A stretch of 64,000 nucleotides of DNA from Flavobacteriales bacterium. GTDB taxonomy: Bacteria; Bacteroidota; Bacteroidia; Flavobacteriales_G; Salibacteraceae. The stretch is from assembly GCA_018660685.1 (NCBI GenBank), contig JABJJW010000012.1:124001-188000 (forward strand), in the 5' to 3' direction. The translations under genes were made by a program, and so were the position numbers. A model generated the notes under the pieces. That model saw only the letters and a list, made by a program, of their open reading frames with translations, did not search any database and was not told where the DNA came from. The first letter of the stretch is position 1. Each line of letters begins with the position of its first letter. Below are positions 21,893 through 31,680 of this stretch, in pieces.

Positions 21893-21926
21893 CCTAATCG
21901 CGAAGGAATCGTTTATTTTGACAGAG

Positions 21927-24725: not shown

Positions 24726-25208
24726 ATGATTAGATCGCTTTCGCTAGCCGCTTTGTTATTGTTGTTCATGAACACTTCGTATGCACAAGGTGGATGCACG
24801 ACCTTGCTAGAATCCTTAGAGGCTGCTAGTGCCACCGAGTTGTGTGGAGAACACAAACGCCTTCGGTCATACAAGAATCCTTACTGCGACACAACCAACA
24901 GCATCTTTCATGACATCATGAAACAGATTGGTATCAAAGCTGCCAAGGAAGGCTTGACCAAGGAGGTTGTTCTCAGCAATATGGGGGAGCCTTACTACCA
25001 TGGTCCACTAGCAGATTACGAGAAGCAAAAAGTGAGCGTAGGTCGAAACGGCACGCGAACCGGGAAGGCACTACCGCCTGCATACAAGATTCCAACAGGC
25101 GAGTATTACATCGTTTATTTCTGGCGTGAAACGGATTACCTCGTATTTGCTCTCAAAGGAGGCGTTGTGGTAGAGACACGCTGGTGGGAAAAGGGCAACT
25201 TCAGATAA
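24726..25208 (+). CDS. Secreted protein of unknown function
   Basis: MIRSLSLAALLLLFMNTSYAQ is a signal peptide. The mature part has three early cysteines (GGCTT, TELCGEH, NPYCDTT) that could form disulfides, then LTKEVVLSNMGEPYYHG, a pattern reminiscent of BamE-like lipoproteins in which a Gly-Pro/Glu-Pro turn follows a helix, and ends in strands (TGEYYIVYFWRETDYLVFAL, KGGVVVETRWW). The resemblance to a BamE-like fold is weak, so I leave it unnamed. Confidence 0.65.
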   Translation: MIRSLSLAALLLLFMNTSYAQGGCTTLLESLEAASATELCGEHKRLRSYKNPYCDTTNSIFHDIMKQIGIKAAKEGLTKEVVLSNMGEPYYHGPLADYEKQKVSVGRNGTRTGKALPPAYKIPTGEYYIVYFWRETDYLVFALKGGVVVETRWWEKGNFR

Positions 25209-25244: not shown

Positions 25245-25589
25245 CTACTCTGAAGCTTCGGGATTTTGTTTCACCGTATTTTCATCGTAACAATGGTGGG
25301 CATAGGATGTTTTGTATGAATCCCGTTGCTCAGGTGACATACTCATCCATCGTCTCTTCATACGATGCTTCCATCGTTTTCCACCGTGACTTCTTCCTCC
25401 CCTTCCAAATCCACCGAAGATGATTTTACTGAGGATTAGTAAACCAATCGCTTGCCAGAACGTGATTAGGGGCAATCCGAAAATTACTGGCAAAAGCCAA
25501 TTCCACAGTGACATGGTTACGTATGCGAAGAGACCCATGGCACCAATGGCCAGTAGTCCAAAACCTAATACAATCAATACTTTTTTCAT
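25245..25589 (-). CDS. Small membrane protein with basic tail, sigma-factor neighbour
   Basis: Two membrane helices (VLIVLGFGLLAIGAMGLFAYV and IFGLPLITFWQAIGLLILSKIIF) precede a Gly/His/Arg-rich basic stretch (GGRSHGGKRWKHRMKRRW) and a tail MSMSPEQRDSYKTSYAHHC. It begins eight bases after the stop of the sigma-factor fragment and was probably its operon partner. It may be an anti-sigma or regulatory target, but no anti-sigma motif is visible. Confidence 0.65.
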   Translation of the reverse strand: MKKVLIVLGFGLLAIGAMGLFAYVTMSLWNWLLPVIFGLPLITFWQAIGLLILSKIIFGGFGRGGRSHGGKRWKHRMKRRWMSMSPEQRDSYKTSYAHHCYDENTVKQNPEASE

Positions 25590-25596
25590 TTCAACT

Positions 25597-25896
25597 TTAA
25601 TTTTGAGTTAATTCATAAAAGAGCTGCTGTAACCTGCTTCTTAGTTGTAACACGGCGTATCTCTTCCTCGATAAGAGGGTCGATACTTTTTGCCCTGTTT
25701 CCTCACTTATGCTTTTGAATGATTCCCCTTCCATTTCGTGACGTACAAAAACATCCCGCTGGTCATATGGTAATTCATTAATCGCTGATTCGAGTTCTTC
25801 TCGAATCATCTTGGTGAACATCTCATCCTCCGGATTCGATTCGAAAAGCAGGAACAACTCAGGCATGTCATGCTCAGCTTCACCGCTGAACTCCAT
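25597..25896 (-). pseudogene. Truncated ECF-type sigma factor (region 4 only)
   Basis: The 99 residues match only sigma region 4: ELESAINELPYDQRDVFVRHEMEGESFKSISEETGQKVSTLLSRKRYAVLQLRSRL is the helix-turn-helix that contacts the -35 element. Region 2, which binds core polymerase and the -10 element and should occupy about 90 residues before it, is absent. Upstream in frame there are only six codons (NRAASF) before a TAG. The missing part is replaced by a Dps gene tail on the other strand, so the gene appears cut by a deletion and is unlikely to work as a sigma factor. Confidence 0.75.
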
Positions 25897-25905
25897 GAAT
25901 GATGC

Positions 25906-26022
25906 AGCTCTATTCTAGATATGGCTGATGAACTTGGTGATGAAGGAACCAATGCACTCATGAGCGATTACATCCGTGAGCAAGAAAAGCTGATATGGAT
26001 GTATTCTGCATTCCTTTCATAG
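25906..26022 (+). pseudogene. C-terminal remnant of a Dps-family gene
   Basis: Translated on the plus strand, this gives ILDMADELGDEGTNALMSDY then IREQEKLIWMYSAFLS and a TAG at 26020-26022. The block (GDEGTxxxMxxYIxxxEKxxWM) is the last helix and tail of Dps, the ferritin-like DNA-protection protein of about 155 residues. Everything upstream of about 25903 is missing; an in-frame TGA sits at 25900-25902. The first ATG, at 25921, could only make a 33-residue tail. It is a remnant abutting the truncated sigma gene. Confidence 0.75.
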
Positions 26023-26051
26023 GTCTGAACAGAGTTGTTGATATTTGGGGT

Positions 26052-26486
26052 ATGAGGATGATCATACCCCTTTTTTGTGTCTTGCTGATCGCTTGTAGTG
26101 AAAACCCACCGGCTGATGAAGGAGAAAGTGGAATGATCATAGTCAATGGCGTTGAACGAAGTGAATTAGCGCGATTGATGCGCCAGATGTACGACGAAAT
26201 GAAGTTGGTCAGTGATTCCCTCGAATCTGGAAGTTCGGTGAGCCCCAAATTCTATACGAACTACGAAAGAATTACCTCGGCCCATGCTACGGAACCAGAG
26301 AAAATTGACGAGCTCTATCAGAGCATGGCTGACGCATTTCTTGACAATTATGAGTCTTTCGAGGGTGATGAAGATGGGCAGATCCCCGCCTTCAACATCA
26401 TGGTTGATAATTGCCTCGTCTGTCACCAAAACAAATGTCCGGGCCCCGTGAAAGCGATTAAAAAGCTGAAAATTAAGCCTCAATAA
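26052..26486 (+). CDS. Lipoprotein with a single CxxCH heme-type motif
   Basis: MRMIIPLFCVLLIACS is a lipoprotein signal with lipobox LIAC. Most of the mature chain is helical (LARLMRQMYDEMKLVSDSLESG, KIDELYQSMADAFLDNYESF), and near the C-terminus lies NCLVCHQNKCPGP, a CxxCH c-type heme site in a four-helix-like protein, as in some diheme or cytochrome c'-type sensors. The downstream Cys-Pro may be structural. The frame is open from 25995, but that region is the Dps remnant, so the ATG at 26052 is chosen. Confidence 0.7.
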   Translation: MRMIIPLFCVLLIACSENPPADEGESGMIIVNGVERSELARLMRQMYDEMKLVSDSLESGSSVSPKFYTNYERITSAHATEPEKIDELYQSMADAFLDNYESFEGDEDGQIPAFNIMVDNCLVCHQNKCPGPVKAIKKLKIKPQ

Positions 26487-26534: not shown

Positions 26535-27326
26535 ATGCGAAGTCTTATCTACCTATTCCTCCTTTTGATTCTTTCATCATGTGGCACCCAACATGACGCA
26601 TCGATTGTCGGAGAAGAAATCATGTATGAAGGAGACAGCATCACGATGAAAGGATATCTGGCCTATGATAAAAATGCCACAGATAAACGTCCGGGCATTA
26701 TCGTAGTCCATGAATGGTGGGGCCACAACGATCATTCAAGAAACAGCGCACTAAAATTGGCGGAGGCCGGATACGTTGCTTTTGCTCTCGACATGTACGG
26801 CGACGGGAGGCAAGCGGACCACCCAGAGGACGCGGGGTCATTTGCCGGAGCTGTCATGCAGAATTTTGACGGAGCCAAAGAGAGGTTCAACGCTGCCGTA
26901 GAAACACTCAAAAAAAGCGAGCACTGCGATAATGCGAACATAGGTGCAATCGGATATTGCTTTGGTGGTGGAGTCGTTCTAAATATGGCCCGCCAAGGAG
27001 CAGAGCTCAATGCGGTAGCTACCTTCCATGGGAGCATCGGTCCAATTGAAGCGGCAACACCCGGTTCTGTCAACGCGAGAATTTTAGTGATGAATGGAGC
27101 AGATGATCCTTTCGTGTCAGCGGAGGCGATTGAGTCATTCAAGGATGAAATGGATTCAGCTGGCGTGACATATGAGTTTGTGAACTATCCAGGGGCAGTT
27201 CACGCTTTCACCAATCCTGGAGCCACAGAAAAAGGTGAGAAATTTGATCTTCCATTGGCATACAACAAAGAAGTTGATGAGGAAAGCTGGACTAAACTCC
27301 TTGAGTTTCTAAGCCAGTCATTTTAA
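26535..27326 (+). CDS. Dienelactone hydrolase-family lipoprotein
   Basis: A lipoprotein signal (MRSLIYLFLLLILSSCGTQ) precedes an alpha/beta hydrolase of the dienelactone hydrolase family: GIIVVHEWWGHNDHSRNSALKLAEAGYVAFALDMYG, the nucleophile elbow GAIGYCFGGGVV with Cys as nucleophile, an acid in NGADDPFV, and YPGAVHAFTNPGA supplying His. Family members hydrolyse lactones and esters. The exported location suggests action on environmental esters rather than on chlorocatechol intermediates. Confidence 0.9.
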   Translation: MRSLIYLFLLLILSSCGTQHDASIVGEEIMYEGDSITMKGYLAYDKNATDKRPGIIVVHEWWGHNDHSRNSALKLAEAGYVAFALDMYGDGRQADHPEDAGSFAGAVMQNFDGAKERFNAAVETLKKSEHCDNANIGAIGYCFGGGVVLNMARQGAELNAVATFHGSIGPIEAATPGSVNARILVMNGADDPFVSAEAIESFKDEMDSAGVTYEFVNYPGAVHAFTNPGATEKGEKFDLPLAYNKEVDEESWTKLLEFLSQSF

Positions 27327-27363
27327 TCGGCCGAGTTGAGAAGATCGGGTAATCTACAGCTAC

Positions 27364-27497
27364 GATACTGGCCTCCCCTTCAAAGAGAGCGCTCGTTATT
27401 TGTCCTAGAGAACAGAATTCTTCATATACGTTCAGCAAGTGCTCAAACATCTTGTGGTTATTGACAGCAGTTCCAAGGATGGACCGCTTCAGATCTT
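27364..27497 (-). pseudogene. Decayed copy of the icmF 3' end
   Basis: Read on the minus strand this segment encodes AVNNHKMFEHLLNVYEEFCS then LGQITSALFE, parallel to [20 protein letters not shown] then [18 protein letters not shown] at the end of IcmF. At the DNA level the two segments are roughly four-fifths identical by eye, with a three-base insertion and a one-base deletion that breaks the final VGGQYR into another frame. Its start overlaps the end of the methyltransferase gene. There is no upstream mutase sequence, so this is a remnant, not a gene. Confidence 0.85.
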
Positions 27498-28304
27498 TCT
27501 CGAAATGATATGCATATAAACAGTCTCGCCTGAGCTCAGATCAGTAAAGAATTTCGATCCGGGCACACCTGCAAACTGCTTTACCGTCGTTCTCATCCAC
27601 CATGGAACATGGGCTTTGATCAACTCATCCCTATTGGGCTCGTCAGCCTTTAGTGCCAGCAATACATTTGGGGAGATATCATTGTAAACTTCAATTTGAA
27701 ACCCTGCTGACTCTATTGATTTTTTAATGGAATCTACTTTCTCGGCCTGTCTGAAATCAGCATAACAAAAATGTCCTCCCGGTTTTAGCACTCTGCAAGC
27801 CTCTTTCACAAAGGCATCAAAATCAGGATAAGTATGAGATGATTCAACATTTATCAACGTGTCCATCGTATCCGAATCTAATGGAAGGTCGTCTGCCGAT
27901 CCCTGAATGTATCTCAAGCCCTTATCAGGAAAACGTTTGTTGCAAAACGAAATGCTCCGATGGCTCAGGTCAAGACCTACAGATGCTTTCGGGCTGAATC
28001 GTTCGTGGAGATGATGTAGACCTCCTCCTCTTCCGCAGCCGACCTCGAGGACATCTTTGTCGCTGATATTTACACCGTTGACGACTTGCTGGTAAAGATT
28101 CTTGCTAACTTCTTCATGCGCGGCAGACCCCACAAATCCTTCTGGTAAATATCCATAGTTCATGCACGTCCATTCAGTCAAGTTGCTATACTTTCTAGAG
28201 AGAAAGTTATACCACCATTTCCATAAAGACTGACGAAAAGAAGCATTGCCTCTCATGAATGATGAAAGCCATTTATAGAAGCTTTGGTTACCAGCTACTG
28301 CCAT
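27489..28304 (-). CDS. Class I SAM-dependent methyltransferase
   Basis: The core motif I is DVLEVGCGRGGGLHHLHERF with motif II-like VGLDLSHRSISFCNKRF and motif III-like VLKPGGHFCYADFRQAEKV, the usual order for small-molecule methyltransferases. An N-terminal helical extension of about 80 residues contains SNLTEWTCMNYGYLPEGF, which resembles the phthiotriol/rebeccamycin-type O-methyltransferase entry. It starts seven bases after the icmF stop, so it is probably cotranscribed, but the substrate is not evident. Confidence 0.85.
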   Translation of the reverse strand: MAVAGNQSFYKWLSSFMRGNASFRQSLWKWWYNFLSRKYSNLTEWTCMNYGYLPEGFVGSAAHEEVSKNLYQQVVNGVNISDKDVLEVGCGRGGGLHHLHERFSPKASVGLDLSHRSISFCNKRFPDKGLRYIQGSADDLPLDSDTMDTLINVESSHTYPDFDAFVKEACRVLKPGGHFCYADFRQAEKVDSIKKSIESAGFQIEVYNDISPNVLLALKADEPNRDELIKAHVPWWMRTTVKQFAGVPGSKFFTDLSSGETVYMHIISRKI

Positions 28305-28311
28305 AGGATAT

Positions 28312-31300
28312 TTACATGTTTCTTCGATACTGACCTCCCACTTCGAAGAGGGCGCTCGTAATGTGTCCCAGAGAACAGAATTTACATACGTTCATCAAAT
28401 GATCAAACATGTTGTCATTGTTGATGGCAGCCACCTGCAAATCACGAAGAAGTGTGGCTTGTTCCGAAGATGTGCTCTCGTGGAGCCGATTTAGCATTGA
28501 AATCTGATATTCCTTTTCCTCCTTGGTTGCGCGAATAACTTCTTTTGGAAGAACAGTTGGACTTCCTTTTGAACTCAAGAAAGTATTGACGCCGATAATC
28601 GGAAATTCTCCTGTGTGCTTGAGCGTTTCGTAGTACAAACTCTCTTCCTGAATTTTGCTACGCTGGTACATGGTTTCCATGGCACCTAGCACTCCTCCCC
28701 TTTCCGTGATTCTATCAAATTCAGTGAGTACCGCCTCTTCGACTAGATCTGTAAGTTGTTCGATGATGAACGACCCTTGAATCGGGTTCTCATTTTTAGC
28801 CAGACCCAATTCCTTATTGATAATCAATTGGATTGCCATGGCACGACGAACACTTTCCTCAGTAGGCGTTGTAATGGCTTCATCGTAAGCATTTGTGTGC
28901 AGCGAGTTGCAATTATCATAAATCGCGTATAGCGCCTGAAGCGCCGTACGGATGTCGTTAAAGTCTATTTCTTGAGCATGCAAGCTTCGTCCAGAAGTCT
29001 GTATATGATACTTCAGCATTTGAGCGCGAGCGTTCGCTCCGTACTTCTGTTTGAGTGCTTTCGCCCAGATTCTTCTCGCTACTCTGCCTATAACGGCATA
29101 CTCAGGATCAATACCATTGCTGAAGAAGAAGCTCAAATTCGGTCCAAAAGCATTGATGTCCATACCTCGGCTGAGATAGTATTCTACATATGTAAATCCA
29201 TTGGCCAGCGTAAAGGCCAGCTGGGTTATTGGGTTCGCCCCAGCTTCAGCAATGTGATAACCGCTAATTGAAACAGAATAGAAGTTTCTGACTTTGTTCT
29301 CAATGAAACTCTCTTGGACGTCGCCCATTAATCGCAGCGCAAATTCTGTGCTGAAAATGCAGGTATTTTGAGCTTGATCTTCTTTGAGTATGTCTGCTTG
29401 AACCGTCCCACGCACGACACTCATTGTTTCGGTTTTGATCTTGGCGTAAACATCTTCTGGGAGGACCTGATCACCAGTTACTCCCAAGAGCATCAATCCG
29501 AGACCGTCATTTCCTTCCGGAATATCTCCTTGATACTTCGGCCGCTCCAAACCCTTATCATCCCAAAGCTCCTTGAGCTTTGCTTCTACTTGATCTTCAA
29601 GTCCATTTTCTTTAATGTACTTCTCAGAGGCTTGATCAATGGCCGCATTCATGAAAAAGCCCAAAAGCATTGGAGCAGGTCCATTGATAGTCATCGATAC
29701 CGATGTCTTTGGGTCGGCGAGATCAAAACCTGAATAAAGTTTCTTCGCATCATCAAGGCAGCAGATGCTCACTCCTGAATTCCCGACCTTCCCATAGATA
29801 TCAGGGCGATGATCTGGATCATTTCCATAAAGAGTCACAGAATCAAATGCAGTACTAAGTCGCTTTGCGGGCATCCCAAGACTCACATAATGGAATCGTC
29901 TGTTAGTCCTTTCCGGTCCGCCTTCTCCTGCAAACATTCGAGTTGGATCTTCTCCTTCTCTCTTGAACGGATAGATTCCAGCTGTGTATGGGAATTGACC
30001 AGGAACGTTTTCTTGCAAAGCCCAATCCAGCCAATCTCCCCAGGATCGATAAACTGGCGTCGCAACCTTCGGGATTTGAGAATGACTCAATGATTCGGTA
30101 TGGGTTCGAACTTTGATTTCTTTGTCACGAACCTTGAACGAGTAGAACTCATTCTTATAACGATTCATCTGATTTTCAAAGTCCTCGATCAAATCCCAAT
30201 TTCGGGGGTCGAGGTCTTTTTTGACATCCTCAAACTTTGCCTCCAAGGCAGTTCGGAGGTCTGTACCTACCTCCAGCTCTTGAATAGCCATGTCAAGTGA
30301 ATAGAGTCTACCAGCAATATTGCTCTGTTCTTCGACCCACTTATCGTACGCTCGATTATTCTCTGAAATCTCGCTCAAGTATCTTGTTCTGGCTGGAGGA
30401 ATGATGAATATCTTTTCACTCATCTCATCCGTAATTTCGAACGTCGACCTGAGTTGTTCAGCGCCAGTTTTGTCGACGATAAGATCCATGATAGCCTTAT
30501 AGAGTGTGTTGGTACCTGGGTCGTTAAATTGACTGGCAATTGTACCATAGACCGGAATTTCTTCGTCCGACGTATCCCAGAGCTGGTGATTTCTTTTGTA
30601 TTGTTTCTTCACATCGCGCACCGCATCCAGGGAGCCCCGTTTGTCGAATTTGTTTACTGCAACTATATCAGCAAAGTCCAACATGTCAATTTTCTCCAAC
30701 TGCGTCGCTGCGCCAAATTCAGGGGTCATCACATAAAGACTCGCATCACTGTGATCAAGAATTTCCGTATCACTCTGTCCAATACCAGATGTTTCTAGAA
30801 TGATAAGGTCGAATTGGGCTGCTTTAAGAATATCAAGGGCTTCTTTCACGTGCTTGCTCAATGCTAGGTTGCTCTGGCGAGTGGCGAGCGAACGCATGTA
30901 GACTCGATCGTTTCTGATAGCATTCATGCGAATTCTATCTCCTAGGAGAGCTCCACCTGTTTTGCGTTTGGATGGATCGACCGACACAATTGCTAGGGTC
31001 TTCTCCGGAAAGTCAAGTAAGAATCTCCGTACAAGCTCATCAACCAAGGAGCTTTTCCCTGAACCACCTGTACCTGTAATACCTAAGATTGGTGTGTTAC
31101 TTTGACCAGCAATATCTCTGACCTTGTTTAGGTCATCTTTATGTTCTTCAGGATTGTTTTCAGCTGCTGAGATCAAGCGTGCTATTGAACCTCTGTCTTT
31201 CCCAGTGAGGCGAGAAATTTCTCCATTCAGATTTACTCCAGTTGCAAAGTCACATTGCTCGAGCATGTCATTGATCATCCCTTGCAGCCCCATTGATCTT

Positions 31301-31680
31301 CCATCATCAGGATGATAAATGCGAGTGATTCCGTAGTCATGGAGTTCTTTAATTTCCTCCGGCAGGATTGTACCACCGCCGCCGCCAAATACCTTGACGT
31401 GACTTGCTCCTTTCTCCTTCAGCAGGTCAAACATGTACTTGAAGTATTCCATGTGACCTCCTTGGTAGCTTGTCATCGCGATTGCTTGAGCATCCTCTTG
31501 GATGGCACAATTGACCACTTCTTCTACGCTCCGATCGTGCCCGAGATGGATGACTTCCGCTCCTGTACTTTGAATGATTCGTCGCATGATATTAATGGCA
31601 GCATCATGCCCATCAAATAAAGAAGCCGCCGTTACGACACGAATTTTGTTCTTAGGAGTATATGGCGCTACAATCTGCAT
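28312..31680 (-). CDS. icmF: Fused isobutyryl-CoA mutase IcmF (B12 domain, G-protein chaperone, mutase)
   Basis: At 1122 residues this matches IcmF in length and order. Residues 1-150 are the cobalamin-binding domain with DGHD at 23-26, where His25 is the lower cobalt ligand. Residues about 195-420 are a MeaI/ArgK-type GTPase with P-loop GTGGSGKSS at 203-211 and [19 protein letters not shown]. The rest is the TIM-barrel acyl-CoA-binding mutase domain ([24 protein letters not shown] and [20 protein letters not shown]) ending VGGQYRRNM. It interconverts isobutyryl-CoA and n-butyryl-CoA, or related branched acyl-CoAs. The methyltransferase gene follows directly. Confidence 0.93.

Follow-up and report, generated by a model that had tools for sequence, protein, structure and literature searches.

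A probable deletion scar joining the 3' remnants of an ECF-like sigma factor gene and a dps gene in a Flavobacteriales draft genome

Introduction

How do two genes come to lack their facing ends at one and the same point? The question is raised by a short interval (25597-26022) of a 64,000-nucleotide stretch of DNA, referred to here as the window, from a Flavobacteriales bacterium (assembly GCA_018660685.1, contig JABJJW010000012.1; G000:C22:124001-188000). On the minus strand lies the end of a sigma factor gene and on the plus strand the end of a dps gene. An earlier note read their junction as a deletion scar. The genome (G000) is a 2.58 Mb draft in 28 contigs with a completeness of 96.4%, and the up to ~4% that may be absent from the assembly bounds every statement below that something was not found in it.

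The same-genus comparison set comprised 12 genomes besides G000. The sigma and dps pair was searched for in a set of 41 genomes including G000 and in a set of 35 family genomes, G000 included, and the neighboring lipoprotein gene in 42 order-level genomes, again counting G000. The lipoprotein alignment was scanned over named GTDB contigs, giving 28 loci, and gene content was read for 8 of these.

The Two Remnants

The minus-strand remnant belongs to an ECF-like sigma-70 gene and covers region 4 with part of the linker (25597..25914), as recognized by Pfam Sigma70_r4_2 and by alignment with homologues. Its ATG-initiated part forms a 99-codon open reading frame (25597-25896), and from the ATG at 25896 the frame stays open back to 25914, giving 105 residues without internal stops or frameshifts. 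The Sigma70_r4_2 match lies above the Pfam cut-off (1.6e-9) and the conserved region 4 residues are retained, while no Pfam match to region 2 is obtained in the window ORF, which bears out the earlier note's reading that only region 4 is left. The homologue in G009, 195 residues long, is matched by both region 2 (2.3e-8) and region 4. The remnant shares 48-51% identity with the full-length homologues of G007 and G009 (~49% and 51%, respectively), and its homology with the sigma factor of G020 begins at 25914. The next-best same-genus sigma matches reach at most 36% identity, and at that level are read as paralogues rather than as this sigma factor. Region 2 mediates core binding and recognition of the -10 element; since it is absent, the remnant alone cannot be a working sigma factor. 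Compared with an ECF-like sigma-70 factor carrying Sigma70_r2 and Sigma70_r4_2 and accompanied by a membrane protein gene, the window keeps region 4 and the membrane gene, as in G007 and G009, but differs in missing region 2.

The plus-strand remnant holds the last 36-38 codons of dps and its stop (about 25909..26022). The Pfam Ferritin profile (PF00210) is covered at positions 102-136 of 142, with a score of 29.6 bits (cut-off 24.5), so that the ferritin-like domain is not whole and its C-terminal positions alone are represented, again in line with what had been noticed from the letters. The tail shows 77-80% identity to the full-length Dps proteins of G023, G048, G021 and G010, the best match having 80% identity over 35 residues (E 9.5e-16), and it also matches residues 123-158 of the 159 in PDB chain 3iq1_A (E 9.5e-13). 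The window copy thus resembles full-length Dps proteins over its last 36-38 residues, at up to 80% identity, and differs from them in that roughly three quarters of Dps are gone, the metal-binding residues of its first helices among them. Like its counterpart, the dps remnant contains no internal stops or frameshifts. Judged from these alignments, neither remnant is a chance match.

The Join

The two genes are in divergent orientation, sigma on the minus strand at the left and dps on the plus strand at the right, with their 5' ends facing; of the two arrangements that the earlier note had left open, convergent or divergent, only the latter fits. Read back across the junction, the Dps frame ends on the sigma side (TGA, 25900-25902), and the sigma frame ends on the Dps side (TAG, 25915-25917). 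These two stops bracket the join and place it at about 25903..25914, where the homologies of both sigma and Dps reach their limit. The single join that had been claimed is therefore present, slightly to the right of the position first given for it (25897-25908). A promoter scan gave 5 promoter-like sites against 2.8 expected.

Neighboring Genes and Synteny Within the Genus

Behind the sigma remnant lies a gene for a small membrane protein (25245..25589, minus strand), taken from the ORF table and 45.5% identical to the G009 homologue; the earlier note had suggested looking for such a partner gene, and it is intact here. To its left is the gene for a 160-aa protein with a signal-like start (24726..25208, plus strand; 55-61% identity to its counterparts in loci L138-L143), which serves as left synteny anchor. 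The right anchor is a lipoprotein-like gene with a C-x-x-C-H stretch (26052..26486, plus strand; 59-67% identity in the alignment), whose start is taken at 26052, the ORF as listed starting at 25995. Its start lies 29 bp after the dps stop. A terminator-like hairpin of 9 pairs followed by six T (26047-26070) is located 24 bp past the dps stop and overlaps the lipoprotein ATG at 26052.

Close full-length homologues of the window sigma factor are found in two of the 12 other same-genus genomes, G007 and G009. To the left of sigma, both carry the counterparts of the genes at 21918, 23014, 24138, 24726 and 25245 in unchanged order and strand. To the right follow a gene X (174-197 aa), a gene Y (476-479 aa), whose product carries a secretion-tail domain in Pfam, and then the counterpart of the lipoprotein gene 26052-26486; the counterpart of the hydrolase gene 26535-27326 lies 5.0-5.7 kb beyond the latter, and these two right-hand counterparts likewise keep the order and strand that they have in the window. 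For the sigma half, the window flanks are thus colinear with those of relatives that hold the missing part. In L138, L139 and L140 (judged by contig position, the loci of G002, G011 and G006) gene 24726 directly adjoins the lipoprotein gene with no sigma in between, and in L143, which shares the X match with the G004 locus, X precedes the lipoprotein gene and no sigma was matched. Gene 24726 was not near the lipoprotein gene in the short loci of G001, G003, G005, G010 and G012, and the lipoprotein had no match in G008. Altogether, six of the 12 genomes share with the window this interval bounded by gene 24726 and the lipoprotein gene.

The content of this interval varies: it is empty in L138-L140, holds X in L143, and holds the membrane gene, sigma, X and Y in G007 and G009. 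Genes may have been gained and lost here repeatedly.

The small membrane gene also adjoins sigma in G007, G009, G020, G023, G019 and G044. In six of the seven relatives' loci read (L005, L006, L008, L079, L080 and L081), sigma has a small membrane protein gene behind it, and the encoded proteins share a W-N-x-x-x-P and F/Y-W-Q-A pattern; in the seventh, L078, no such protein was listed behind sigma. The window protein has no Pfam match. It is possibly a regulator of the sigma factor, and a limited literature search found nothing on small membrane anti-sigma proteins of ECF sigma factors in Bacteroidetes.

Another local rearrangement, the second in this region, lies 1.5 kb from the scar. The 3' end of a gene for a 1122-aa mutase (28312-31680, minus strand) occurs twice, at 28322-28415 and as a degenerate copy at 27360-27455, with 84% identity over 97 bp and about 1 kb between the copies; a methyltransferase ORF (27489-28304) sits between them.

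Missing Halves and the Source of the dps Tail

Are the missing halves elsewhere in the genome? A Dps N-terminal query found nothing in G000 within E<=1; the same query, as a control, matched eight of the 12 other genus genomes (none in G005, G008, G009 and G012) and both control genomes of other genera. Matches to PF00210 in G000 comprise a ferritin, a MiaE hydroxylase and the window dps tail only. The sigma N-terminal query recovered only weak paralogues; the strongest of them lies in a complete 198-residue frame and reaches 8.3e-6, compared with 1.9e-46 for the same query in G009. A second dps or a second copy of this sigma gene was thus not detected in G000, where sigma paralogues are present, and in these control-backed searches the intact copies elsewhere that the earlier note had named as a counter-finding did not turn up.

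No dps was found between sigma and the lipoprotein gene in any of the relatives' loci examined, including those of G007 and G009; in G023 and G043 sigma and dps share a contig, but at distances of some 30 kb and 49 kb. In G002, G004, G006, G007 and G011 dps adjoins an OxyR-like regulator gene (the name OxyR is our reading of a LysR-type sequence), and the dps genes of G001, G003 and G010 were not seen beside such a gene. The window tail has 74-77% identity to those of G001 and G010, 67% to that of G003 and 63-72% to the OxyR-linked ones, and so seems somewhat nearer the kind not seen beside an OxyR-like gene. G000 has an OxyR-like gene with no dps alongside.

Origin of the Scar

What event could leave two 3' ends joined in this way? 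The scar probably reflects a single local deletion in the G000 lineage, in which sigma and dps, as divergent genes, lost their 5' parts. Such a deletion would have taken about 88-95 codons of the ECF-like sigma gene, about 121-127 codons of dps and everything between them, in all some 630 bp or more besides the intergenic DNA. It would have left the two 3' remnants joined at about 25903-25914 and spared the downstream gene on either side, that for the membrane protein behind sigma and that for the lipoprotein behind dps. An intact dps would once have stood between sigma and the lipoprotein gene, and one event would have made the scar; both remnants are most likely without function. One deletion accounts for the scar most simply; its sigma half draws on direct comparison with relatives, its dps half on an inferred parent arrangement. 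The deletion between neighboring genes that had been proposed at the outset, to be compared with relatives in which both genes are whole and adjacent, therefore holds for sigma, full-length at the same place in G007 and G009, but finds no relative with dps there. What speaks against a single deletion is that this parent sigma-dps arrangement is seen in no relative examined, and that G007 and G009 carry X and Y at the site; in addition, the OxyR-like gene of G000, whose counterpart adjoins dps in five genus members, has no dps beside it.

Alternatively, more than one event may have been involved, with a dps 3' fragment or a dps-bearing segment arriving first and sigma truncated then or later, so that no intact divergent pair ever stood at the site. 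The absence of dps at this place in the relatives examined and the variable content of the interval from gene 24726 to the lipoprotein gene are consistent with such a history, which we nevertheless consider unlikely: both remnants miss exactly their 5' ends, facing each other at one point, which one deletion explains most simply, and the dps remnant retains its stop, 29 bp before the lipoprotein start. Joins of this kind can also arise in assembly, from a chimera or a mixture of strains, both genes then being whole in the organism, and G000 is a draft in 28 contigs. However, synteny with G007 and G009 unites both sides of the join, as would not be expected of a random chimera, and the other G000 contigs yielded neither missing half, making an artefact very improbable. 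An inversion or translocation with breaks inside sigma and dps would likewise leave two 3' ends joined at this point, with the two 5' halves joined elsewhere. It has hardly any probability, since the right flank is undisplaced and is the one that follows sigma in relatives, and searches of G000 did not recover the 5' halves. Flanks shared with relatives argue against chimera and inversion alike.

Could the deletion be real and the sigma remnant still be in use? The region-4-only ORF (25597-25896) might be expressed as a small DNA-binding regulator acting with the membrane protein; its frame runs for 105 codons without a stop, the conserved residues of region 4 are preserved, and the neighboring membrane gene is still whole. 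Yet the ORF lacks the original 5' end and upstream region, and the dps remnant, which is unable to form Dps, is likewise free of stops; a frame still open is what a recent deletion would leave in the sigma remnant anyway. Expression in this role is accordingly given only a very slight chance, and it is just as doubtful that the remnant was kept as a promoter-binding decoy or as a partner of the membrane protein, a sigma factor turned new regulator.

Implications

Pseudogene pairs derived from deletions are a general kind in bacterial genomes, and the scar is no notable exception, with two genes whose facing ends are lost at one join. Dps was found in eight and this sigma factor in two of the 12 other genomes of the genus; both being patchy, their loss is unremarkable, and that of Dps carries no unusual consequence. 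The effect on stress tolerance that the earlier note thought could follow from losing Dps and a stress-type sigma factor is possible, the sigma factor here being recognized only as ECF-like, and a limited literature search found nothing on dps gene loss and oxidative stress in Flavobacteriales. The scar represents ordinary pseudogene formation, with a relevance limited to the biology of the G000 lineage: if a single deletion was indeed responsible, one step of gene loss would have produced a member of the genus without detectable Dps and without this ECF-like sigma factor, while the membrane protein neighbor was kept.
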